DNA of 64,000 bases, from assembly GCF_029267515.1 (NCBI RefSeq), contig NZ_JAJUIS010000008.1, positions 1 to 64,000 of the forward strand. The letters are read 5' to 3'. The stretch comes from Seleniivibrio woodruffii (GTDB lineage Bacteria; Chrysiogenota; Deferribacteres; Deferribacterales; Geovibrionaceae). Within the stretch, counting starts at the first letter, position 1. Each line of letters begins with the position of its first letter. The translations under genes and the position numbers were made by a program. Positions 5,578 through 16,430 of the stretch are shown piece by piece. The notes below the pieces were generated by a model. The model saw only the letters and a list, made by a program, of their open reading frames with translations. It did not search any database and had not been told where the DNA came from.

Positions 5578-5606
5578 TTGACATATATAAGTCTTGTCCA
5601 TAATAT
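5578..5606 (+). promoter_or_regulatory. Sigma-70 promoter of the regulator/efflux operon, with possible operator
   Basis: TTGACA (5578-5583), a 17-nt spacer and TAATAT (5601-5606) form a near-consensus promoter. The -10 region runs into a direct repeat ATATTCAT-ATATTCAT (about 5603-5619). A repeat like this is a candidate operator for the ArsR-type protein encoded just downstream. The operator role is inferred. Confidence 0.7.
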
Positions 5607-5639
5607 TCATATATTCATTTTTCTTTGGAGGTTTTTATT

Positions 5640-5942
5640 ATGGAAGAATGGTTCGCAATGTACTCCGAGAAGCTCAAGGCAATAGGTCACCCTATCAGAC
5701 TCAAACTGATGGTTGGTCTCATGAGCAACGAGTGCAACGTTACCAAAATCTGTAAAGGGCTTGATATCCCTCAGGCCACCACAAGTCAGCACCTTGCAAT
5801 ACTCAAAAACAAAGGGCTGATCAAAGGCAAAAGGTCCGGAACCAGCATTTGCTACAGCATCGCCGACGACGGCATCAAAGCTATGATTAAAGAACTTATG
5901 GAGAAGACAGGATGCGTTTCCCCGTGCGAGGGTTCACACTAA
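5640..5942 (+). CDS. ArsR/SmtB-family transcriptional regulator
   Basis: This 100-residue winged-helix repressor is of the ArsR/SmtB type. I chose the ATG at 5640 because GGAGG lies at 5627-5631, inside the alternative TTG start. The core is KLKAIGHPIRLKLMVGLM (helix 1) and the recognition helix region DIPQATTSQHLAILKNKGLI, then a wing with GKRSGTSICYSI. Cys32 and Cys38 sit near the position of the ArsR metal-binding helix, and Cys92 and Cys96 are at the C-terminus. A metal, arsenic or thiol-persulfide sensor is therefore possible. The 3' end overlaps the TolC gene by 31 nt, so it most likely controls the efflux operon behind it. Confidence 0.88.
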   Translation: MEEWFAMYSEKLKAIGHPIRLKLMVGLMSNECNVTKICKGLDIPQATTSQHLAILKNKGLIKGKRSGTSICYSIADDGIKAMIKELMEKTGCVSPCEGSH

Positions 5943-7228
5943 GCCTTGCGCTGCTTTTTGCGGCACAGGCACACGCGGCTTCACTCACCTTTGCTCAGGC
6001 AAAGGAGATGGCGCTTAAAAATTCGAACGTCATAAAATCATATAAGGCGGACGAAGAAGCGGCAGGCTACGTCAAAAATCAGGCTGTGGGCAGCTATCTT
6101 CCAAATATCAGCCTGCACCAGACTCTCATGAAATCCGATGAACCGGGCACCGCTGCATTTGCCACGGCAAAGCAGGGCAGGTTCGACATGAACTATTTCA
6201 TGAACAATATGGCAAGCCCCGACACCGTTACAACCTATACCACACAGGTTCAGGTTATGCAGCCGATATTTATGCAGGGACAGATCTATTACGGCATAAA
6301 ACAGGCGGACAAAGCCTATCAGGCAAGCCGTATGCAGACAGAACGGGCGACGCAGTTCACCCTGTATAATCTGCACATGGCGTTTTACGGGCTGGCTCTC
6401 GCTGAAAAGGCGCTGGACACCGCAAACCACTCATACGAACGCACAAAAAGATACTACAGGAACGCCGCAGACTTTTTCAACAACGGTCTCATCGTTAAAA
6501 GCGACCTGATGGTATCTGAAAGCTACATGCTTATGAACGAACAGGCGGTCAAAGAAGCCGAAAAGCAGCACGCGGTTGCCATGAGCAACCTGCAAAGGCT
6601 TCTTGACTCCGATGAACCCGTTAAGGTCGTCTGGACGACACCGGAACTGGAATTCTCCGAGGATATTTCCAAATATACCGCTACTGGACTGAAAAACAGG
6701 CAGGATCTCTCTGCTATGCAGAAATATCTGGACGCGGCAGGATATGAAACCAAAAAGGCAAAGGCGGCTCTTCTGCCCTCCGTTTACCTCTTTGCGGACT
6801 ATCAGCGCAACGACGACAAGTTCCTCGGCGACAACGGAGACGGTACGACATACGGGATTCAGGCGGATATGAACCTGTTCAAAGGCTTCGGCGATTATAA
6901 CAAAATTGCCGAAACAAAGAGCAGACAGATTTCCCTTATGCACCAGATATCAGACAAAAAACTCGAAATAAAATCCGAGATAAAGAATTCTTATTACGGC
7001 GTTATAGCCGCATCCAAACAGATCGAGGCGTCAAAAAAACGTGTTGAGGCAGCGCAAACGGCGCTCGCTATTACGGAAAACAGGTTTAACGAAGGTCTTT
7101 CGAAGGTTACTGAGCTGCTGGACAGGGAAGTTGACCTGAAGCAGGCTGAGCTTTCGCTCTATATGTCCGAATATCAGGAGATAGTTGAGAAAGCGGGACT
7201 TCATCTGGCAGCCGGAGATTTACACTAA
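5912..7228 (+). CDS. TolC-family outer membrane efflux protein
   Basis: This outer-membrane channel subunit of a tripartite efflux pump has 438 residues. It has an N-terminal signal peptide (LSLALLFAAQAHAA, cleavage near residue 23) and two TolC-like alpha-hairpin repeats. Each starts with long helices: LTFAQAKEMALKNSNVIKSY near the N-terminus, and EIKSEIKNSYYGVIAASKQI and ALAITENRFNEGLSKVTELL near the C-terminus. The latter is the family signature that ends in a 'y..al..y' type segment. The chosen start overlaps the regulator gene, so the two genes are translationally linked. The RND adaptor and pump genes follow after a 136-bp gap with their own promoter. Confidence 0.9.
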   Translation: MRFPVRGFTLSLALLFAAQAHAASLTFAQAKEMALKNSNVIKSYKADEEAAGYVKNQAVGSYLPNISLHQTLMKSDEPGTAAFATAKQGRFDMNYFMNNMASPDTVTTYTTQVQVMQPIFMQGQIYYGIKQADKAYQASRMQTERATQFTLYNLHMAFYGLALAEKALDTANHSYERTKRYYRNAADFFNNGLIVKSDLMVSESYMLMNEQAVKEAEKQHAVAMSNLQRLLDSDEPVKVVWTTPELEFSEDISKYTATGLKNRQDLSAMQKYLDAAGYETKKAKAALLPSVYLFADYQRNDDKFLGDNGDGTTYGIQADMNLFKGFGDYNKIAETKSRQISLMHQISDKKLEIKSEIKNSYYGVIAASKQIEASKKRVEAAQTALAITENRFNEGLSKVTELLDREVDLKQAELSLYMSEYQEIVEKAGLHLAAGDLH

Positions 7229-7236
7229 AATTTAAA

Positions 7237-7281
7237 GAGACTGCTGCGCCACTGCAATAACTGCAAGGACGTAGCAGTCTC
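7237..7281. repeat. Interspersed hairpin repeat (family 2), short copy after tolC
   Basis: GAGACTGCT (7237-7245) pairs exactly with AGCAGTCTC (7273-7281), followed by ATTTTCATTTTT. The AGACTGCT end is shared with copies at 19940-20011 and 37212-37273. It may also act as a terminator for the TolC gene, since a T-rich stretch follows. Confidence 0.55.
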
Positions 7282-7305
7282 ATTTTCATTTTTAAAACAA
7301 ACGGC

Positions 7306-7333
7306 TTGAAAACTGTGCACTAAATATTATAAT
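7306..7333 (+). promoter_or_regulatory. Sigma-70 promoter for adaptor/RND genes, AT-rich possible operator
   Basis: TTGAAA (7306-7311), a 16-nt spacer and TATAAT (7328-7333). The region from 7322 to 7347 is an AT-rich partly palindromic stretch. On the minus strand it reads ATATTCAAATATTAT, which resembles the ATATTCATATATTCAT repeat at the promoter upstream of the regulator gene. The same regulator may bind both sites (inference). Confidence 0.55.
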
Positions 7334-7364
7334 ATTTGAATATAATAAAATTAAGAGGATTAAA

Positions 7365-8501
7365 ATGCTTCGTAAGTTCATTGCCTCGGCAGCAATTCTT
7401 GCACTTCTGACGGCGTGCGGCGGAAATGACAAAAAAACGGAAACTGCCCCTGCACCAGCAACCGTAAAGGTGAAACTCCACTCCGTTTCCGAATCGGACG
7501 TGGACGCAACACGCGTGTTCACAGCCACCGTCTCCAGCGACAAGACAGCGATCATCATCCCAAAGGTCACAGGCTATGTTGAACAGATACTTGTCACCCC
7601 CGGACAGCAGGTTAAGGCAGGACAGCTCCTTGCCGTTATAAAAAGCGGCGAACTTGAGCAGAAGATGGCTTTTGCAGCCTCAGGCGAAATGGAAACACAG
7701 AACGCGCTGCGTCAGGCAAATATAGGCTATAAAATGGCTCAGTCAGAGTTTGACCTGGCGGAAAAGACATACAACAGGTATGTGAACCTCATCAGAAACA
7801 GCAGCGTTTCAAAACAGGAATTCGATCAGGTGGAATCTCAGTATAAGGTCGCAAAGGAGAACCTTGACCTTGCTGCGGAAAAGGTTCAGCAGGCAAAGAT
7901 AAAGTCCGGTCAGGCGGGAGCCATGAAAAGCGAAGTGGACACATATCTGTCATACACCCAGCTTCGGGCACCATTTGACGGCATCGTACTTGAAAAGAAC
8001 ATGGATGCGGGCAACCTTGCAAACCCAGGCAGCCCCGTCCTTAAAATAGGCAACAACGTCCCTGTTGTCGTGGCGTACATCAGCCAGAATATGATAGAAG
8101 AAGTTAAACTCGGCACAAAAGCAGTGGTCTCCATAGACTCGCTGGGCGACGAGTTTGACAGCACCGTTCTTGAAATAAGCCCCGATATCGACCCGGCAAC
8201 AGGCAACTTTAAGGTAAAGCTCTCCGGCTGTGAAAAAATGGCGCAGGGCATGTTTGCCAAAGTACGCTTCATCACAGGCAAGGAGAAGGTCATAGCCGTT
8301 CCTTCGTCCGCAATAGTCACACGCGGACAGCTCACCATGGTGTTCGTTGAAGACAAAGGAAAGGCTGATATGCGCGTTGTTAAAACCGGACGCGATTTCG
8401 GCGGGTTCACAGAGATACTCTCAGGTCTCTCCTCCGGTGAAAAGGTTGTTTCCGAAAACGCCGCAATACTGAAATCCGGCGACATCTTAGAGGCTGAGTG
8501 A
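7365..8501 (+). CDS. RND efflux periplasmic adaptor (membrane-fusion lipoprotein)
   Basis: The adaptor joins the inner-membrane RND pump to the TolC channel. It has 378 residues and starts with a lipoprotein signal (LALLTACGG, Cys18 lipidated). The biotinyl-lipoyl-like domain is split in two: IPKVTGYVEQILVTPGQQVK before, and YTQLRAPFDGIVLEKNMDAG after, a coiled-coil hairpin of about 110 residues. A beta-barrel domain (VVVAYISQNMIEEVKLGTKA) and a membrane-proximal domain (FAKVRFITGKEKVIAVPSSA) follow. The stop codon overlaps the start of the pump gene (TGATG), indicating coupled translation. Confidence 0.93.
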   Translation: MLRKFIASAAILALLTACGGNDKKTETAPAPATVKVKLHSVSESDVDATRVFTATVSSDKTAIIIPKVTGYVEQILVTPGQQVKAGQLLAVIKSGELEQKMAFAASGEMETQNALRQANIGYKMAQSEFDLAEKTYNRYVNLIRNSSVSKQEFDQVESQYKVAKENLDLAAEKVQQAKIKSGQAGAMKSEVDTYLSYTQLRAPFDGIVLEKNMDAGNLANPGSPVLKIGNNVPVVVAYISQNMIEEVKLGTKAVVSIDSLGDEFDSTVLEISPDIDPATGNFKVKLSGCEKMAQGMFAKVRFITGKEKVIAVPSSAIVTRGQLTMVFVEDKGKADMRVVKTGRDFGGFTEILSGLSSGEKVVSENAAILKSGDILEAE

Positions 8502-11500
8502 TGGAATATCCCGAAAAAAAGAATCTTGCGTCAAAGATAGCCTCGGCGTTCATAACGTCGAAGATAACGCCGCTTCTGGTGATAGCTACGCTGTTCATCG
8601 GAATGGTGTCCATAATAATGACGCCCAAAGAGGAGGAACCCCAGATAGTGGTTCCGATGGTGGATATACTCGTCCCCTATCCGGGCGCAACCGCGAAAGA
8701 CGTTGAAAAATCAGTGACAGAACCGCTTGAAGACATAATCTGGGAGATACCCGGAGTCGAGTACGTCTACAGCACCAGCATGAACGACATGAGCATGGTT
8801 ATAGTCCGTTTCAAGGTGGGCGAGGACGAGGAAAAGTCCATAACCAAGCTGAAAGACAAGATAGATTACAACATGGACAGGATGCCCCACGGCGTGGAGC
8901 CTCCGCTCATCAAAAAGCAGTCCATCGACGACGTTCCGCAGATGGCGTTCACCTTCTGGTCGGACAAATACGATTCATACCAGTTGAGACGCATAGTTTC
9001 CGAGGTTGAAAAGAACCTCAAGGAAGTTGAGAACGTATCGAAAACAGATATAATCGGCGGCTATAAGCGCATGGTGCGCATAGAGCCGAACATCGAAAAG
9101 CTGAAAAGCTATAACCTTGACCTGTTCAGGCTGTTCAAAGCCGTCGAAATGAGCAATATGTCCCTTAACACAGGCGAGATAACCAAGAAAAACAAGGTTC
9201 TCTACGTCAGCGCAGGCGGATTTTATAAGGATGCGGAAGCTGTCAGGAATATGGTTGTGGGCGTTTCACAGGGCAAAGCAGTCTATATGAAGGACGTTGC
9301 CACCGTAACCGACGGTCCTGAAATTCCCGACCATTTCCTTCTGATGGGCTTCAAAGCGTCTAAAGACATGGAACGCTATCCGGCCGTAACCCTTTCAATC
9401 TCAAAGAGACAGGGCAGCGACTCCGTGGTGGTTTCCGATGCGGTTCTGCATAAGCTGGACGCACTTAAAGGCTACATAATCCCCTCGGATGTCAACGTCG
9501 AGGTTACAAGAAACTACGGCGACACAGCCTTCGTTAAGGTCATGACCCTCATCGAACACCTTGTAGGCGCCATCATTGCAGTTATTCTCGTTATGAGCTT
9601 AACAATGGGCTGGCGTGCCGGAGCGGTTGTTTTTGTGGCGCTTCCGGTGACGTTTGCACTGACGTTCTTCGTCTATTTCATGTTCGACTACACACTGAAC
9701 AGGGTAACTCTGTTCGCCCTCATATTCGTTGCGGGACTGGTGGTGGACGACGCCATCATTGTTGTGGAGAACATGGAACGGCACTTCCGGCTTGGCGCTA
9801 AAAACCTGCTGCAAAAGGCTATTTATGCAGTCGGCGAGGTGGGTAATCCCACCATACTTGCAACCGTAACGGTCATTGTAGCAATTTTCCCCATGGCGTT
9901 TGTACGCGGACTTATGGGCCCCTACATGAAGCCAATGCCCATAGGCGCTTCGCTGGCTATGATATTCTCGCTTTTTGTGGCGCTTATCATAACCCCCTGG
10001 CTCGCATATAAACTGCTAGCCGGACACGCTGCAAAGAGTGTTGAGGCACCCGTTGAGGATGAAGCGGCATACGTAAAAACGACAAAACTTTACAGGATAT
10101 ACAACAGAACGTTCTCCGCACTGATAGACAGCGCGCGCAACAGGATAATCTTTACCATCGTGATTCTTTCGCTCTTTTTCGGCGCATTCATTTTCATCCC
10201 CACAAACCTTGTGGTAATGAAGATGCTGCCGTTTGACAACAAGAACGAAGTTCAGATAGTTATAGATATGCCCGAAGGAACACCACTTGAACGTACAAAC
10301 CTTGTTGCGTCCGAGGTTGGAAAATACCTGGCTACAGTGGACGAAGTTAAAGACTATCAGATATATACCGGTATCGCATCACCGTATAACTTCAACGGTC
10401 TGGTGCGCCACTATTTCATGCGGCGCGGGCACAACGTAGCAGACATTCAGGTGAACTTCGTTGACAAGAGCGAAAGGAATCTGGACAGCCACGAGATGGC
10501 AAAGAAGCTGCGCAGACCAGTTCAGGAGATAGGCAGCAAATACGCCGCAAACATAAAGATTGCGGAAGTTCCGCCCGGCCCCCCCGTTCTCTCAACACTG
10601 GTTGCTGAGATTTACGGACCCGACGAAAAGACCCGCTCCGACATAGCAAAACAGGTTCTCGGTGTGTTCAAGTCAACGAAAGGCGTTGTGGACATTGATA
10701 CTTACGAAGAGGACGACATGATGCAGTACGACCTTCAGGTTGACAAACAGAAGGCGGCTGTGATGGGGATCTCTGCCGAGATGGTATCAAAAACCCTTTA
10801 TATGGCTCTTCAGGGTGCCAAGGTGGGTATTCTCCACACGGAAGAGGACAGGGAACCCGTTGATATTGTTATCAAATTGCCCGAAGATAGGCGAAATATG
10901 ATAGAGACCCTTCAGGAGATAAACCTTATCTCCATGAGCGGTCAGCCCGTCAGCCTCGGCGAGCTTGTTACAGTACGCCAGAAGCTCAAGGACAAAGCTG
11001 TTTATCATAAGAACATGAAGCCCGTCACCTACGTCGTAGCAGACGTTGCAGGAGAGATTGAAAGCCCCGTTTACGCCATTCTGGGCATGAAAGAGAAGAT
11101 GTCGCAGATAAAATGGCACGGGCTTGACGTTAAACAGTACTGGACAGGACAGCCGGACACATACGACCTGCCCTCCGTCAAATGGGACGGCGAGTGGCAG
11201 ATTACCTATGAAGTGTTCCGCGACCTCGGACTTGCGTTTGCGGCGGTTCTGGTGCTCATGTATTTTGTGCTGGTTGGCTGGTTCCGCTCGTTCGCAACAC
11301 CGCTAATCATGATGGTACCCATTCCGCTTTCCCTTCTGGGCATCATACCCGGTCACTTCATATTCGGGCAGTTCTTCACTGCCACCAGTATGATAGGCTT
11401 CATAGCACTGGCGGGTATCATGGTGCGCAACGCGGTGCTTTTGATAGACTTCATTGAGCACGCGCTGGCGAACGGAAGAACACTGCGCGAGGCGGTAATA

Positions 11501-11728
11501 GAATCAGGAGCCATAAGAACGCGCCCCGTGGTACTGACCACTGTTGCGGTTATAACAGGCGCGCTGTTCATGCTGCCCGACCCGATATTCGCAGGTCTCG
11601 GCGTATCGCTTATCACGGGTGCTGTTGTTTCAACGGTGCTCACACTGCTTATTATTCCTCTTATGTACTTTTTCCATAAGAGGTTTTGGGATAAAAAACA
11701 CAGAATGGAGGAATACAATGTCCATTAA
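8501..11728 (+). CDS. RND-family efflux pump, inner-membrane permease
   Basis: This proton-driven pump component has 1075 residues from the ATG at 8501 (a GTG directly before it is also in frame). It shows the RND plan of 12 membrane helices and two large periplasmic loops. The proton-relay helix carries AGLVVDDAIIVVENMERH with the paired Asp. The porter domain begins VPYPGATAKDVEKSVTEPLE with GVEYVYSTS. The second half has GIMVRNAVLLIDFIEHA and ends with IIPLMYFFHKRF. The substrate cannot be told from sequence. The general pattern is closer to hydrophobic/amphiphilic efflux (HAE) pumps than to heavy-metal pumps, although the ArsR-type regulator upstream would suit a metal or reactive sulfur signal. 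Confidence 0.95.
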   Translation: MEYPEKKNLASKIASAFITSKITPLLVIATLFIGMVSIIMTPKEEEPQIVVPMVDILVPYPGATAKDVEKSVTEPLEDIIWEIPGVEYVYSTSMNDMSMVIVRFKVGEDEEKSITKLKDKIDYNMDRMPHGVEPPLIKKQSIDDVPQMAFTFWSDKYDSYQLRRIVSEVEKNLKEVENVSKTDIIGGYKRMVRIEPNIEKLKSYNLDLFRLFKAVEMSNMSLNTGEITKKNKVLYVSAGGFYKDAEAVRNMVVGVSQGKAVYMKDVATVTDGPEIPDHFLLMGFKASKDMERYPAVTLSISKRQGSDSVVVSDAVLHKLDALKGYIIPSDVNVEVTRNYGDTAFVKVMTLIEHLVGAIIAVILVMSLTMGWRAGAVVFVALPVTFALTFFVYFMFDYTLNRVTLFALIFVAGLVVDDAIIVVENMERHFRLGAKNLLQKAIYAVGEVGNPTILATVTVIVAIFPMAFVRGLMGPYMKPMPIGASLAMIFSLFVALIITPWLAYKLLAGHAAKSVEAPVEDEAAYVKTTKLYRIYNRTFSALIDSARNRIIFTIVILSLFFGAFIFIPTNLVVMKMLPFDNKNEVQIVIDMPEGTPLERTNLVASEVGKYLATVDEVKDYQIYTGIASPYNFNGLVRHYFMRRGHNVADIQVNFVDKSERNLDSHEMAKKLRRPVQEIGSKYAANIKIAEVPPGPPVLSTLVAEIYGPDEKTRSDIAKQVLGVFKSTKGVVDIDTYEEDDMMQYDLQVDKQKAAVMGISAEMVSKTLYMALQGAKVGILHTEEDREPVDIVIKLPEDRRNMIETLQEINLISMSGQPVSLGELVTVRQKLKDKAVYHKNMKPVTYVVADVAGEIESPVYAILGMKEKMSQIKWHGLDVKQYWTGQPDTYDLPSVKWDGEWQITYEVFRDLGLAFAAVLVLMYFVLVGWFRSFATPLIMMVPIPLSLLGIIPGHFIFGQFFTATSMIGFIALAGIMVRNAVLLIDFIEHALANGRTLREAVIESGAIRTRPVVLTTVAVITGALFMLPDPIFAGLGVSLITGAVVSTVLTLLIIPLMYFFHKRFWDKKHRMEEYNVH

Positions 11729-11912
11729 GGATATTTTAAGACTTGTACCCGGCATATTCATACTTCTGAGTGTCGGACTGACAGTTGCCACTGACAATAA
11801 ATGGTGGCTGGCACTGGCGGCTTTTGTGGGGCTTAACCTGCTTCAGTCCGCTTTCACAAAATGGTGTCTGCTGGAAGACATCCTGCGCAAAATGGGTATC
11901 CGCGAGGTTTAA
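11718..11912 (+). CDS. Small inner-membrane protein, DUF2892/YgaP-like
   Basis: This 64-residue protein has two predicted membrane helices (VPGIFILLSVGLTVAT and WWLALAAFVGLNLLQSAF) and a short tail, KWCLLEDILRKMGIREV. The pattern matches the DUF2892 family also found at the membrane end of rhodanese YgaP. It overlaps the pump gene by 11 nt and precedes a strong terminator, so it is the last gene of the efflux operon. The conserved KWC-P/L-L segment holds a single Cys. Its role is unknown. It may accompany the pump or handle sulfur or thiol stress (inference). Confidence 0.75.
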   Translation: MSIKDILRLVPGIFILLSVGLTVATDNKWWLALAAFVGLNLLQSAFTKWCLLEDILRKMGIREV

Positions 11913-11920
11913 CAGAAAAT

Positions 11921-11957
11921 AAGCCCGACAGTTTCTCTGTCGGGCTTGATTTTTTTG
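11921..11957 (+). terminator. Terminator of the efflux operon
   Basis: AAGCCCGACA (11921-11930) pairs with TGTCGGGCTT (11939-11948), followed by GATTTTTTT. It lies 8 nt after the small membrane protein gene. This is a classic intrinsic terminator. Confidence 0.9.
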
Positions 11958-13071: not shown

Positions 13072-13764
13072 ATGAAAATAGACGGTAAACTCTGGATAGA
13101 TATCAACGGAAACGGAATTGCAGGACACGGCAGGATAAAACTGCTTGAACTGGTGCAGGCTACCGGTTCCATTAAAAAAGCCGCAGAGAGCATCAGAATG
13201 AGCTATAAAGCGGCATGGGACAGTATAAACCTGCTGAACGAGATATACGGCACACCGCTGGTGGAGAGGCAGACCGGAGGTAAAGGGGGCGGAGGTACAA
13301 CCCTTACCAAATCCGGACTGGAACTTATTAAAACCTATAACCACTTGAGCCGGCTGCACATGATGTATCTCGGCACACTTACGGAATCAAACAAACTGGG
13401 CGGCGTTATCAAATCCATCGCGGACACCTATGCCCTTGCCGAAACCGACAACGGCAACATCATTGCAGGAACAATGCTGGACTCCGACCTTAAACCAGGC
13501 GAAACAGTTTCTATATTCGTCAACCCAAAAGATATCATACTTGTGGATAGCGACAAACTGAAAACAAGCGCCAGAAACATCCTTAAAACAACTACCGAGT
13601 CGGTCTCCCCTGAAAAGGATATGACGGAAGTTATCTTGAAGACTGCATACGGCACTGTGCTGAAACTTAACATCACAACCGCAAGCTCTGAAAAACTCGG
13701 TCTTGCACCGGGAAGAGAGATATTTGCACTTTTCAAAACCGCTTCCGCTTTAATAATGAGGTGA
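13072..13764 (+). CDS. modE: Molybdate-responsive regulator ModE
   Basis: ModE senses molybdate or tungstate and represses uptake genes. I start it at the ATG at 13072, directly after the operator, giving 230 residues. An in-frame ATG at 13036 would put the operator inside the gene. The N-terminal winged helix has GRIKLLELVQATGSIKKAAE, MSYKAAWDSINLLNEIYGTP and VERQTGGKGGGGTTLTKSG, the ModE signature. The C-terminal half holds two TOBE/Mop-like segments (LGGVIKSIADTYALAE... and TEVILKTAYGTVLKLNITTA) that bind the oxyanion. modA follows after 4 nt. Confidence 0.93.
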   Translation: MKIDGKLWIDINGNGIAGHGRIKLLELVQATGSIKKAAESIRMSYKAAWDSINLLNEIYGTPLVERQTGGKGGGGTTLTKSGLELIKTYNHLSRLHMMYLGTLTESNKLGGVIKSIADTYALAETDNGNIIAGTMLDSDLKPGETVSIFVNPKDIILVDSDKLKTSARNILKTTTESVSPEKDMTEVILKTAYGTVLKLNITTASSEKLGLAPGREIFALFKTASALIMR

Positions 13765-13768
13765 AATT

Positions 13769-14500
13769 ATGAAAAAGCTCCTGATCATCGCTCTTGCGCT
13801 GGCTCTCTCAACAACTGCCTTCGCAAAAGAGCTGAACATCTCCGCAGCGGCAAACCTTCAGTTCGCTCTGGAAGAGGTCGGAAAAGCCTACAAAGCTGAA
13901 ACAGGCACAGAAGTTAAAGCCGTTTACGGTGCTTCGGGCAAACTTGTTGCCCAAATAATCAACGGTGCAAAATTCGACATCTTTCTTGCCGCAGATATGA
14001 GCTTCGCTCAGAAAGCGTATGAAGCAGGTCTAACAACAGACAAACCCGTTATGTACGCGGAAGGGCTTCTCGTTCTCTGGTCTAAAAAATACGACATAAA
14101 AAAACTTTCCGATCTGAAAGATCCCAAATATGCAAAAATAGCCATAGCAAATCCCGCAACAGCACCCTATGGCAGAGCAGCTGTTGAAGCTATGAAAAAA
14201 GCCGGCGTATACGACACTGTCGCTGACAGAATCGTACAGGGCGAAAGCATCTCCACGATGGACACATACATCCAGACAGGCGCAGCCGACGCAGCTTTTG
14301 CTGCTAAATCACACCTTGCCAGCGGTAAAGTTAAAGACGCAGGCGCATGGTTCGATGTTGACAGAAAACTTTATGCACCAATCGAACAGGGCGGTGTAAT
14401 TCTTAAAACAGGCGACGTTGCCGAATCCCAGAAATTCATGGAATATCTGATGAAAGGCAAAGGCGCGGAGATCATGAAGAAATACGGCTACGCAAAATGA
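13769..14500 (+). CDS. modA: Molybdate-binding periplasmic protein ModA
   Basis: This is the solute-binding component of the molybdate/tungstate ABC importer. The 243 residues begin with a signal peptide (LLIIALALALSTTAFA, cleavage near 19-20). The mature protein starts with KELNISAAANLQFALEEVGK, the ModA opening with oxyanion-binding Ser/Ala. VYGASGKLVAQIINGAKFDI and FLAADMSFAQKAYEAG follow, then NPATAPYGRAAVEAMKKAG and the C-terminal end typical of ModA. The stop overlaps the next start by 4 nt (ATGA). It is repressed by ModE if the upstream operator works as expected. Confidence 0.96.
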   Translation: MKKLLIIALALALSTTAFAKELNISAAANLQFALEEVGKAYKAETGTEVKAVYGASGKLVAQIINGAKFDIFLAADMSFAQKAYEAGLTTDKPVMYAEGLLVLWSKKYDIKKLSDLKDPKYAKIAIANPATAPYGRAAVEAMKKAGVYDTVADRIVQGESISTMDTYIQTGAADAAFAAKSHLASGKVKDAGAWFDVDRKLYAPIEQGGVILKTGDVAESQKFMEYLMKGKGAEIMKKYGYAK

Positions 14501-14898
14501 ATCAGCTAGAGGCAAAGGTTCTCCATTACCGAACCTCCGGTCAGATTATCCTTTGCGAGCTTGAAACTTTCGGCTCGGAAGTCACTGCTGTGATTCTCGA
14601 CAGCCCCGGCGAGCTTGCTTATCTGAAAGAGGGAAATTCGCTGAACATCCTGTTCAAGGAAACGGAGGTAATAATCGCCGCAGGCGAGATAGGTCAGCTC
14701 AGTCTGAACAACAGGTTTAAAGGCACCATAACGGCGATGGAGAAAGGTGATATATTCACCAGCCTTTCCATAGACTTCGGTACGGGGATAACATCGGTGA
14801 TTACGACAAAATCCGTAAACAGGCTCGGACTTGCGGTCGGAAAAGAGGTCACCGCCCTTGTTAAGGCAAACGAAATAGCAATAGGCAGGAGAGACTAG
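14497..14898 (+). CDS. Tandem Mop (di-TOBE) molybdate-binding protein
   Basis: This 133-residue cytoplasmic protein is made of two Mop/TOBE repeats. Residues about 1-65 (NQLEAKVLHYRTSGQIILCE... FKETEVIIA) and 70-133 (LSLNNRFKGTITAMEKGDIF... VTALVKANEIAIG) are similar in plan. Each ends in the 'g..v.a.ika..v.i..' strand of molbindins. Proteins like this store or buffer molybdate. A gene of this kind inside the transporter operon, between modA and modB, is unusual; the TOBE domains are more often fused to ModC or ModE. It overlaps modA by 4 nt and touches modB. Confidence 0.85.
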   Translation: MNQLEAKVLHYRTSGQIILCELETFGSEVTAVILDSPGELAYLKEGNSLNILFKETEVIIAAGEIGQLSLNNRFKGTITAMEKGDIFTSLSIDFGTGITSVITTKSVNRLGLAVGKEVTALVKANEIAIGRRD

Positions 14899-15570
14899 AT
14901 GCGAGAGCTTCTATCTCCGCTTATCCTGACATTTGAACTTGCGGCTGTGACAACATTTCTTCTGGCTGTCACAGCCATTCCTTTTGCATATTGGCTGTCA
15001 TCTGTAAATTTCAGAGGAAAATCCATAGTGGAATCAATAACCGGACTGCCGATAGTTCTGCCCCCTTCGGTTCTGGGTTTCTATCTTCTGGTTTTCATGG
15101 GTCCCCACGGTCCTCTTGGAAGTATTCTGGAAGAGTTTAATATCAGGCTGGTCTTCACATTCGAAGGTCTTGTCCTTGCATCGGTGATATACAGTCTGCC
15201 ATTTATGGTGCAGCCTGTTCAGGCAGGCTTTGAAGCGCTGCCGGTCTCTCTTAAAGAGGCTTCTTACACCCTCGGCAAGTCAAAATTTCAAACCTTTTTC
15301 CGTGTGGTTCTGCCCAATATCAAACCGTCGCTTATCACAGGCATCGTCCTCAGCTTCGCCCACACCGTCGGCGAGTTCGGAGTGGTTCTTATGATAGGCG
15401 GAAGTATTCCCGACCAGACAAGGGTGGCATCCATTGCAATTTACGATCAGGTGGAAGCAATGAACTACGGTACGGCACACTTCTATTCGGCGGTTCTGTT
15501 TGTTCTCGCCTTCCTCGTGCTTGTGACAGTCAACATGGTCAACAGAAAGATAAGCGGAAAGACAATATGA
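14899..15570 (+). CDS. modB: Molybdate ABC transporter permease ModB
   Basis: This is the membrane channel of the molybdate importer, 223 residues with five or six helices. The family-defining sequences are visible: LSSVNFRGKSIVESITGLPI followed by VLPPSVLGFYLL, then the EAA cytoplasmic loop for ATPase contact, EASYTLGKSKFQTFFRVVLP (about 115-135). HTVGEFGVVLMIGGSIPDQT near 152-172 is specific for ModB. The gene starts directly after the di-Mop stop codon and overlaps modC by 4 nt. Confidence 0.97.
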   Translation: MRELLSPLILTFELAAVTTFLLAVTAIPFAYWLSSVNFRGKSIVESITGLPIVLPPSVLGFYLLVFMGPHGPLGSILEEFNIRLVFTFEGLVLASVIYSLPFMVQPVQAGFEALPVSLKEASYTLGKSKFQTFFRVVLPNIKPSLITGIVLSFAHTVGEFGVVLMIGGSIPDQTRVASIAIYDQVEAMNYGTAHFYSAVLFVLAFLVLVTVNMVNRKISGKTI

Positions 15571-16430
15571 TTGAAATTGACGTTGTAAAACGTATAAAAA
15601 CCGCCTCCGGCGAGGTCGATATGCACGCTAAAGTGGATATCGAAAAGGGAGGATTCTGCTCGCTGTTCGGAAAATCCGGCGCTGGTAAGACGACTATAAT
15701 GCGTCTTCTGGCAGGGCTTACAGACCCCGACGACGGCGTTATAAAAATATCCGGCAAAACATGGTATGACAAAAAGAATAAAATAAATATTCCGGTAAAC
15801 AGGCGTAAATGCGGCTTCGTTTTTCAGGACTATGCGCTGTTTCCAAATATGACGGTACGCAGAAACGTTGATTACGCATCGGTTAACAAGTCAAACGTGG
15901 ATATACTGATAGATATGGTCGGCATGACGGAGCTGAAAGACAGAAAACCTGCGACACTTTCCGGCGGACAGCGCCAGAGGGTGGCGCTTGCGAGGGCGCT
16001 TGCTGCTGAGCCGGAGATTCTGCTTCTGGACGAACCTTTTGCGGCACTTGATGCAGATATGCGGAATACTCTGCAAAACGAGCTTAAAACCATACACGAC
16101 ACCCTCGGAGTGACCACCATACTTGTAAGCCATGACAAGGGCGAGGTTTTTAAACTGGCAAACAAGGTATACGTTCTCGACGACGGAGTTATCACCAACG
16201 TTGGCAGTCCCGAAGAGGTCTTCACCGACAACACCATAAGCGGAAAATTCAAATTCACAGGACGGGTCTTAAAGGTTGAAAAGGCGGACTGCCTTTACAT
16301 TCTCACCCTTTCAATAGGAACTGAGGTCGGGCATGTTGTGGCGACACACTCCGAGGCTCACGATTTAGCCGCCGGCGACAGGGTTCTGGTTTACACAAAA
16401 GCGTTCAACCCTTCTGTAAGAAAGATATAA
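15567..16430 (+). CDS. modC: Molybdate ABC transporter ATPase ModC
   Basis: This ATPase drives molybdate import. Its 287 residues show Walker A GKSGAGKTT (about 35-43), Q-loop VFQDYALFPNMTVRRN, signature LSGGQRQRVALARAL, Walker B ILLLDEPFAALD and the switch His in VSHDKGE. Classical ModC (about 350 residues) carries a complete C-terminal TOBE pair. Here only about 60 residues (FKFTGRVLKVEKADCLYILT...) follow the ATPase, so the regulatory part is reduced. The separate di-Mop protein in the same operon may take over that role (inference). Confidence 0.95.
   Translation: MIEIDVVKRIKTASGEVDMHAKVDIEKGGFCSLFGKSGAGKTTIMRLLAGLTDPDDGVIKISGKTWYDKKNKINIPVNRRKCGFVFQDYALFPNMTVRRNVDYASVNKSNVDILIDMVGMTELKDRKPATLSGGQRQRVALARALAAEPEILLLDEPFAALDADMRNTLQNELKTIHDTLGVTTILVSHDKGEVFKLANKVYVLDDGVITNVGSPEEVFTDNTISGKFKFTGRVLKVEKADCLYILTLSIGTEVGHVVATHSEAHDLAAGDRVLVYTKAFNPSVRKI

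Follow-up and report, generated by a model that had tools for sequence, protein, structure and literature searches.

The window, a 64 kb stretch of DNA from Seleniivibrio woodruffii, contains a series of five plus-strand genes encoding, in this order, an ArsR-family repressor, a TolC-type outer membrane channel (OMF), a periplasmic adaptor (MFP), an RND permease and a YgaP-like transmembrane protein (DUF2892). The arsR gene (5640-5942) encodes a protein of 100 amino acids which scored 45.7 bits with PF01022 (cut-off 22) and belongs to the ArsR/SmtB family. The channel gene (5912-7228, PF02321) starts within the end of arsR, and is followed by the genes for the adaptor (7365-8501, PF16576 and TIGR01730) and for the permease (8501-11728, PF00873). 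The last gene (11718-11912) encodes a protein of 64 amino acids with a single cysteine, Cys50. This protein is a member of PF11127 (40.4 bits, cut-off 25.3) and is the only match to this family at E <= 0.001 in the genome of the window. The original prediction, made from the sequence of this region, had placed an ArsR regulator in front of a complete RND operon, and all four remaining components (OMF, MFP, RND and DUF2892) were indeed identified using Pfam. It had also listed four cysteines in the regulator, at positions 32, 38, 92 and 96; these are correct, but Cys71 had been overlooked.

A consensus scan of the plus strand revealed two promoter-like sequences, TTGACA-17-TAATAT upstream of arsR (5578-5606) and TTGAAA-16-TATAAT upstream of the adaptor gene (7306-7333). 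Between the channel and the adaptor genes there is a plus-strand hairpin (7234-7284) with 23-nt arms that are 78% complementary. It is a possible attenuator or terminator, and may uncouple the expression of the channel from that of the pump. Similar hairpins are visible by eye in the close relatives L038 and L039. Downstream of the operon, a sequence scan found a terminator-like stem of 12 pairs followed by a T run (11920-11948, plus strand). Just beyond, at 13072-16430, lies an ordinary-looking molybdate-type cluster with a ModE-like regulator carrying a TOBE domain; the open reading frames after this regulator resemble, by eye, ModA, Mop, ModB and ModC.

Candidate operators at the two promoters

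Candidate operator 1, AATATTCATATATTCAT (5602-5618, plus strand), came from a repeat search and orthologue comparison and lies over the -10 box of the first promoter. Candidate operator 2, which reads TATATTCAAATATTATAATATT on the minus strand (7323-7344), came from the repeat search and from orthologous gaps and overlaps the -10 box of the second promoter. Similar AT-rich sites had been predicted at these two promoters, and both of the quoted repeats are present: ATATTCATATATTCAT begins at 5603 on the plus strand, ATATTCAAATATTAT is read on the minus strand at the second promoter, and their common form is AATATNNNNATATT. Without mismatch this form occurs exactly twice in the 64 kb, at 5602-5615 and 7323-7336, that is at both promoters. 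When one mismatch was allowed there were nine matches against 2.53 expected, four of them within the two promoters, and none of 100 shuffles reached nine. The exact form was found in 135/20000 and 50/20000 composition-only shuffles of the two gaps.

A matrix trained on 78 arsR upstream regions detected a site in 66 of them, these being the training set itself. Operator 1 is the best match in the whole window (score 25.0), with the promoters of close relatives included in the training set. Its exact 17-mer is present at the arsR promoter of all five same-genus genomes, and the arsR site of L111 (Desulfuromonas) is nearly identical to that of the window. A TTGACA-like box is also visible in many of the orthologous arsR promoters. 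In some relatives the site is an imperfect inverted repeat, AATATnCATATATATGnATATT, and in L060 the inverted repeat is nearly perfect, of which the window retains mainly the left half. A clear site was not seen in a few arsR upstream regions, for example those of L043, L050 to L052 and L054. Operator 2 scored 10.9 in the window, which is above the 95th percentile of the controls (8.66) and below the 99th (14.96), and the orthologous gaps of L042, L043 and L044 scored 18.2, 18.7 and 13.9. Its core, TAATATnTGAATATA, is kept in seven of the 11 channel-adaptor gaps of the family that were examined, counting the window; it was not found in the gap of the same-genus locus L040 nor in three loci of another genus. 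In L046 this gap has only 20 bases. Comparison with relatives therefore supports the shared operators of the original prediction, the predicted sites being conserved at both promoters, with operator 1 the more widely conserved of the two.

The sites were also compared with the SqrR-type operator ATTC-N8-GAAT. Operator 1 has three mismatches to it and does not fit, and operator 2 has one. Among the arsR upstream regions this operator occurs exactly in 1/78 and with at most one mismatch in 11/78 against 14/258 controls, a weak enrichment. An AT-rich site over the promoter of its own gene is a feature that the window ArsR would share with the ArsR/SmtB metal sensors. We suggest that the ArsR protein is an autoregulated repressor which binds an AT-rich AATATTCATATATTCA-like site and, when bound, would cover the -10 box of its own promoter and that of the second promoter, which lies in the channel-adaptor gap, so that the pump is off. 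Repression at the -10 box by ArsR is well supported by the position and conservation of the putative sites.

The pattern search in the genome of the window gave 11 matches against two in the control, and five were examined: those of the window, of trxA and of C3, C14 and C9. The last three were rejected as ArsR targets because their sites are intragenic or coincide with the beginning of a zinc-ribbon coding sequence. The site upstream of trxA (L194:5898-5914, which is C29:75897-75913 on the minus strand) reproduces the 17 bp of operator 1 exactly, and it is found in the genome of the window and in two other genomes of the genus. It raises the idea that the regulator responds to another thiol or redox stress (disulfide, oxidative or nitrosative) shared with the thioredoxin system, the operator controlling trxA as well. 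We consider this very doubtful: only three of the five same-genus genomes have the site, and its position, ahead of the likely -35 box and adjoining conserved coding sequence, means that its conservation may be incidental.

Conservation of the module and predicted control of unlinked pumps

The original prediction considered the combination of ArsR, RND pump and DUF2892 protein unusual. This is not supported, since the set is found again in Deferribacterota and at a single locus in deltaproteobacteria, and plasmids of other phyla carry islands of RND, DUF2892 and ArsR genes. The DUF2892 gene adjoins the RND gene in 18/18 further Deferribacterota loci and in 11/12 deltaproteobacterial loci. In L148 the gene order is that of the window, with ArsR followed by the channel, the adaptor, an RND permease (46% identical) and DUF2892. 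Judged by these gene neighbourhoods, the ArsR-RND-DUF2892 operon is a recurring module and not an oddity; no description of it was found in the literature searched (open-licence papers). A draft Denitrovibrio-type genome (L042:4932-8144) has its RND gene split into two open frames, perhaps by a sequencing error.

In the deltaproteobacteria, mostly Desulfuromonadales, the pump stands beside ArsR in only one of 66 loci, L148. In 13 of 20 genomes with ArsR relatives a single RND homologue was found at E <= 1e-120; the other seven gave none. Twelve of these 13 places were covered, the remaining one (L178) being a short contig, and in all 12 the channel, adaptor and RND genes are together. They include two genomes labelled only Deltaproteobacteria, and some such loci are filed under Myxococcota. 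The promoters of these pumps were not in the training set, and 8/12 scored above the 95th percentile of 258 control upstream regions while 4/12 did not; the score of L189 is lowered because its channel start was probably miscalled. The difference from the 258 controls gave a Mann-Whitney p of 7.0e-8, and that from 87 AT-rich controls 1.3e-5, values which are optimistic because the promoters share ancestry. Control of the unlinked pump by ArsR in deltaproteobacteria is thus supported statistically, as a prediction from promoter sequences. Strong operator-like sites were also seen upstream of a 4Fe-4S protein gene (L184:1535-2227) and of a DUF3373 gene (L148:4556-6370); these genes are near RND operons and are possible further targets. 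Some deltaproteobacterial operons contain extra genes, encoding a C_GCAxxG_C_C redox protein (L183, L189 and L191), a metallo-beta-lactamase-fold protein (L182 and L183) or a 4Fe-4S protein (L184).

Families f2-f5 (L047-L055 and L077) have, besides the operon-linked ArsR, a stand-alone ArsR close to that of the window, and in L047-L049 another ArsR gene directly adjoins the stand-alone one. A regulator swap in the family of the window, in which the stand-alone type would have taken the place of the f2-f5 operon type, was considered and is not settled by the tree: the grouping of f1 with the stand-alone type has a support of 76/91, and its grouping with the operon type is not rejected (p-AU 0.42). 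The regulator tree took in 20 of the 66 non-Deferribacterota loci, and alignment A3 comprised 38 of the 80 loci plus the window. No pump was found beside the f7 ArsR relatives (L057, L064, L065, L073 and L074) in the stretches examined, and no sulfur genes were found among the scanned neighbours of the stand-alone ArsRs of Deferribacterota. The neighbours of the deltaproteobacterial ArsRs (methyltransferase, hydrolase and aminotransferase, mostly in opposite orientation) were uninformative as to function.

Fold and cysteines of the regulator

The structure model of ArsR is a winged helix with a mean pLDDT of 89.2. It matched CzrA with a Z of 16.1 and 1.3 A over 91 residues, which assigns it to the winged-helix fold, and its structural matches include CzrA, CadC, HlyU, SqrR and BigR, with CzrA and CadC among the closest. 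The cysteines differ in their conservation. Cys32 is kept in 78 of 79 ArsR homologues, and neither Cys32 nor Cys71 varies among 16 Deferribacterota sequences. Position 71 is a cysteine in 13/79 homologues, all from Deferribacterota, and His, Phe, Tyr or Ser in the other 66, and position 40 is a cysteine in 65/79. These residue counts come from 79 of the 80 ArsR loci, L107 being left out because its start motif is different. Cys38 and the C-terminal cysteines are missing in the operon-linked ArsRs L059, L060, L062 and L063.

In the model a two-residue strand (32-33) lies ahead of helix 3 and residues 69-74 form the second wing strand. Strands equivalent to these two pair in winged-helix folds, so that Cys32 and Cys71 may be neighbours in the modelled protein. 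The presence of Cys32 in 78/79 homologues makes thiol-based sensing by ArsR plausible. We propose that a thiol-reactive signal would modify conserved cysteines: Cys32, which lies in the short strand ahead of helix 3 and may form a pair with Cys71 of the wing, with possible contributions from Cys38 and the C-terminal Cys92 and Cys96. The modified ArsR would then leave the DNA and allow the channel, adaptor, RND permease and YgaP-like protein to be made.

The window ArsR has the same fold as SqrR, BigR, YgaV and HlyU and is similar in size. It differs from them in having no helix-2 cysteine and in carrying Cys92 instead of a cysteine at 91. The alignment with SqrR extends over 92 residues (ArsR 1-92 on SqrR 17-108), and we take Cys41 and Cys107 to be the sensing cysteines of SqrR. 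According to the alignments and the structural match, the dithiol of SqrR, BigR, HlyU and YgaV is absent from the window ArsR, the helix-2 cysteine being replaced by Val25 and the helix-5 cysteine by Gly91, which Cys92 adjoins. Cys31 of YgaV likewise falls on position 25. The possibility that Cys38 and Cys92 are the HlyU sensing pair was ruled out, since the alignments place the helix-2 cysteine on Val25. The NCBIfam BigR model gave 49.6 bits against a cut-off of 155. This model is strict, because all five pump-linked ArsRs from plasmids (see below) also score under its cut-off (65.6-99.1 bits). By numbering arithmetic, Cys38 corresponds in position to Cys63 of sHdrR, a third cysteine that the paper describing it considers unlikely to matter generally (PMC12423496).

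Nature of the inducing signal

The fold admits a different reading, in which ArsR is a metal or metalloid sensor with a thiolate site of Cys32/Cys38 and Cys92/Cys96 for As(III), Sb(III), Cd(II) or similar ions, and the operon encodes a pump for metal or metalloid stress. The protein has an ArsR/SmtB fold whose closest structures include CzrA and CadC, its Cys38 is within helix 3, a location which we take to be near the classical alpha3 metal site, and arsenate respiration occurs in the genus Seleniivibrio. The window ArsR resembles the metal sensors CzrA, CadC and ArsR both in fold and in having a cysteine in helix 3, but the ELCVCD-type CxC motif, presumably typical of such sensors, is absent, and what it would control is an RND pump accompanied by a YgaP-like protein. 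Moreover, Cys38 and the C-terminal cysteines are not found in several operon-linked orthologues, no ars genes occur among the neighbours that could be identified, and another ArsR adjoins a P-type metal ATPase in the genome of the window. The permease also argues against a metal substrate. It has no cysteine and its TM4 motif is VVDDAI, in which we take the DD to be a mark of multidrug-type and not metal-type pumps; to our knowledge heavy-metal RND pumps do not have this TM4 DD. It belongs to the RND superfamily (PF00873, ACR_tran, 547.6 bits, cut-off 28) and scored higher with the best named multidrug model (NF033617, 481.7 bits, cut-off 1250) than with the CusA/CzcA model (TIGR00914, 278.4 bits, cut-off 701.45), both scores being under the cut-offs. 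A metal sensor is consequently an unlikely explanation.

The same scores, together with MexK as the nearest solved relative by sequence, could mean that the operon encodes an ordinary multidrug pump and that ArsR reacts with organic electrophiles or drugs such as quinones, bile acids, solvents or dyes. The structural neighbours of ArsR include, at lower Z, QsrR, YodB and HypR, which are regulators of the quinone and redox type. The permease shares its family with the multidrug pumps MexK, MdtB and OqxB, but it is far under the named-family cut-offs and its linkage to the regulator and to DUF2892 is different. This linkage of RND and DUF2892 recurs, and islands on plasmids add ArsR, rhodanese and FAD oxidoreductases, none of which was found at five control loci, so we regard drug sensing as improbable.

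The plasmid islands favour reactive sulfur. The survey covered 14 of 53 plasmid records with an RND homologue, a non-random choice of one per genus among 40 listed; the flanks were of 6 kb, except for a shorter left flank in the Shinella record, and the gene tables are incomplete. The RND homologues are 37-50% identical to the window permease. Within about 6 kb of them, DUF2892 was found in 11 records, ArsR in nine, an FAD oxidoreductase in eight and a rhodanese or sulfurtransferase in seven, and three of the 14 had none of these. Four of the eight flavoproteins were tested and all matched the SQR model, under its cut-off; that of the Sphingomonas plasmid matched a solved SQR at 3.4e-139. The pump-linked ArsRs of the Paracoccus and Azospirillum plasmids carry the canonical dithiol. 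The control RND loci were six of 14 listed (1507 matched), one of them without annotation, and none of the five annotated ones had any of the four kinds of neighbour; the Thioclava control has MBL-fold and TauE genes nearby.

Published work describes comparable associations. YgaV is encoded together with YgaP (PMC9774250), whose transmembrane domain gives the DUF2892 family its name, and the operon of the window has a member of this family. One paper reports RND pumps in the vicinity of ArsR regulators that carry the sulfane-sulfur dithiol, and adds that many ArsR relatives encoded close to sulfur genes do not have both cysteines and may work differently (PMC12423496). The excerpts of the papers on A. 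baumannii, E. coli YgaV and P. putida contained no RND pump under such a regulator. A further case, likened here by its description, is that of Azospira suillum, in which RND components and a DUF2892 gene form part of the H2S response: an operon with RND and SQR genes (Dsui_3440-3443) and the DUF2892 gene Dsui_0042 are up under H2S, but H2S was oxidized at the same rate after the operon had been deleted (PMC5358917). It differs from the window in that the operon includes SQR, and in the available text of that paper the word ArsR does not occur.

Persulfide induction, one of the options named in the original prediction, is favoured by neighbourhoods in other phyla, but the canonical SqrR/BigR dithiol that would go with it is absent. 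A search with one SQR query at E <= 1e-20 gave no match in the genome of the window; in 47 genomes of the class it matched in 0/45 of families f1-f8 and 2/2 of f9, which is not the family of the window; other SQR types may escape such a search. If the signal is sulfur, it would therefore have to be sensed by other cysteines and arrive by another route, for example sulfur or polysulfide respiration.

We regard the ArsR-RND regulon, as deduced from the conservation of its genes and sites, as real and conserved. What is new is a regulon with one predicted operator common to Deferribacterota and deltaproteobacteria, and a cysteine arrangement unlike that of known sulfur sensors. Repression, thiol sensing, the cysteine pair, the sulfur signal and the exported substrate are what we infer beyond this. 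The likeliest signal would be reactive sulfur, a polysulfide or persulfide derived from sulfide, at about even odds; our lead guess for the exported substrate would be a sulfur species, and the pump and the DUF2892 protein would relieve sulfur stress. The model as a whole, an autoregulated thiol-sensing ArsR with an RND-DUF2892 pump induced by reactive sulfur, may equally well prove right or wrong. A bolder form of it is that this ArsR is a second kind of reactive-sulfur sensor, using Cys32 with the wing Cys71 (Deferribacterota) or Cys40 (deltaproteobacteria) and not a helix-2/helix-5 dithiol, and that through one operator shared across phyla it controls an RND-DUF2892 pump by which anaerobes without an SQR match would rid themselves of polysulfide or persulfide species. 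This is rather unlikely to be correct in full.

The operon offers a compact and testable regulon, of one regulator, one operator and one pump, found repeatedly in Deferribacterota and deltaproteobacteria. Should reactive sulfur prove to be the inducer, a tripartite pump would gain a role in sulfur detoxification, and sulfur sensing by ArsR proteins would have been reached with more than one cysteine arrangement.
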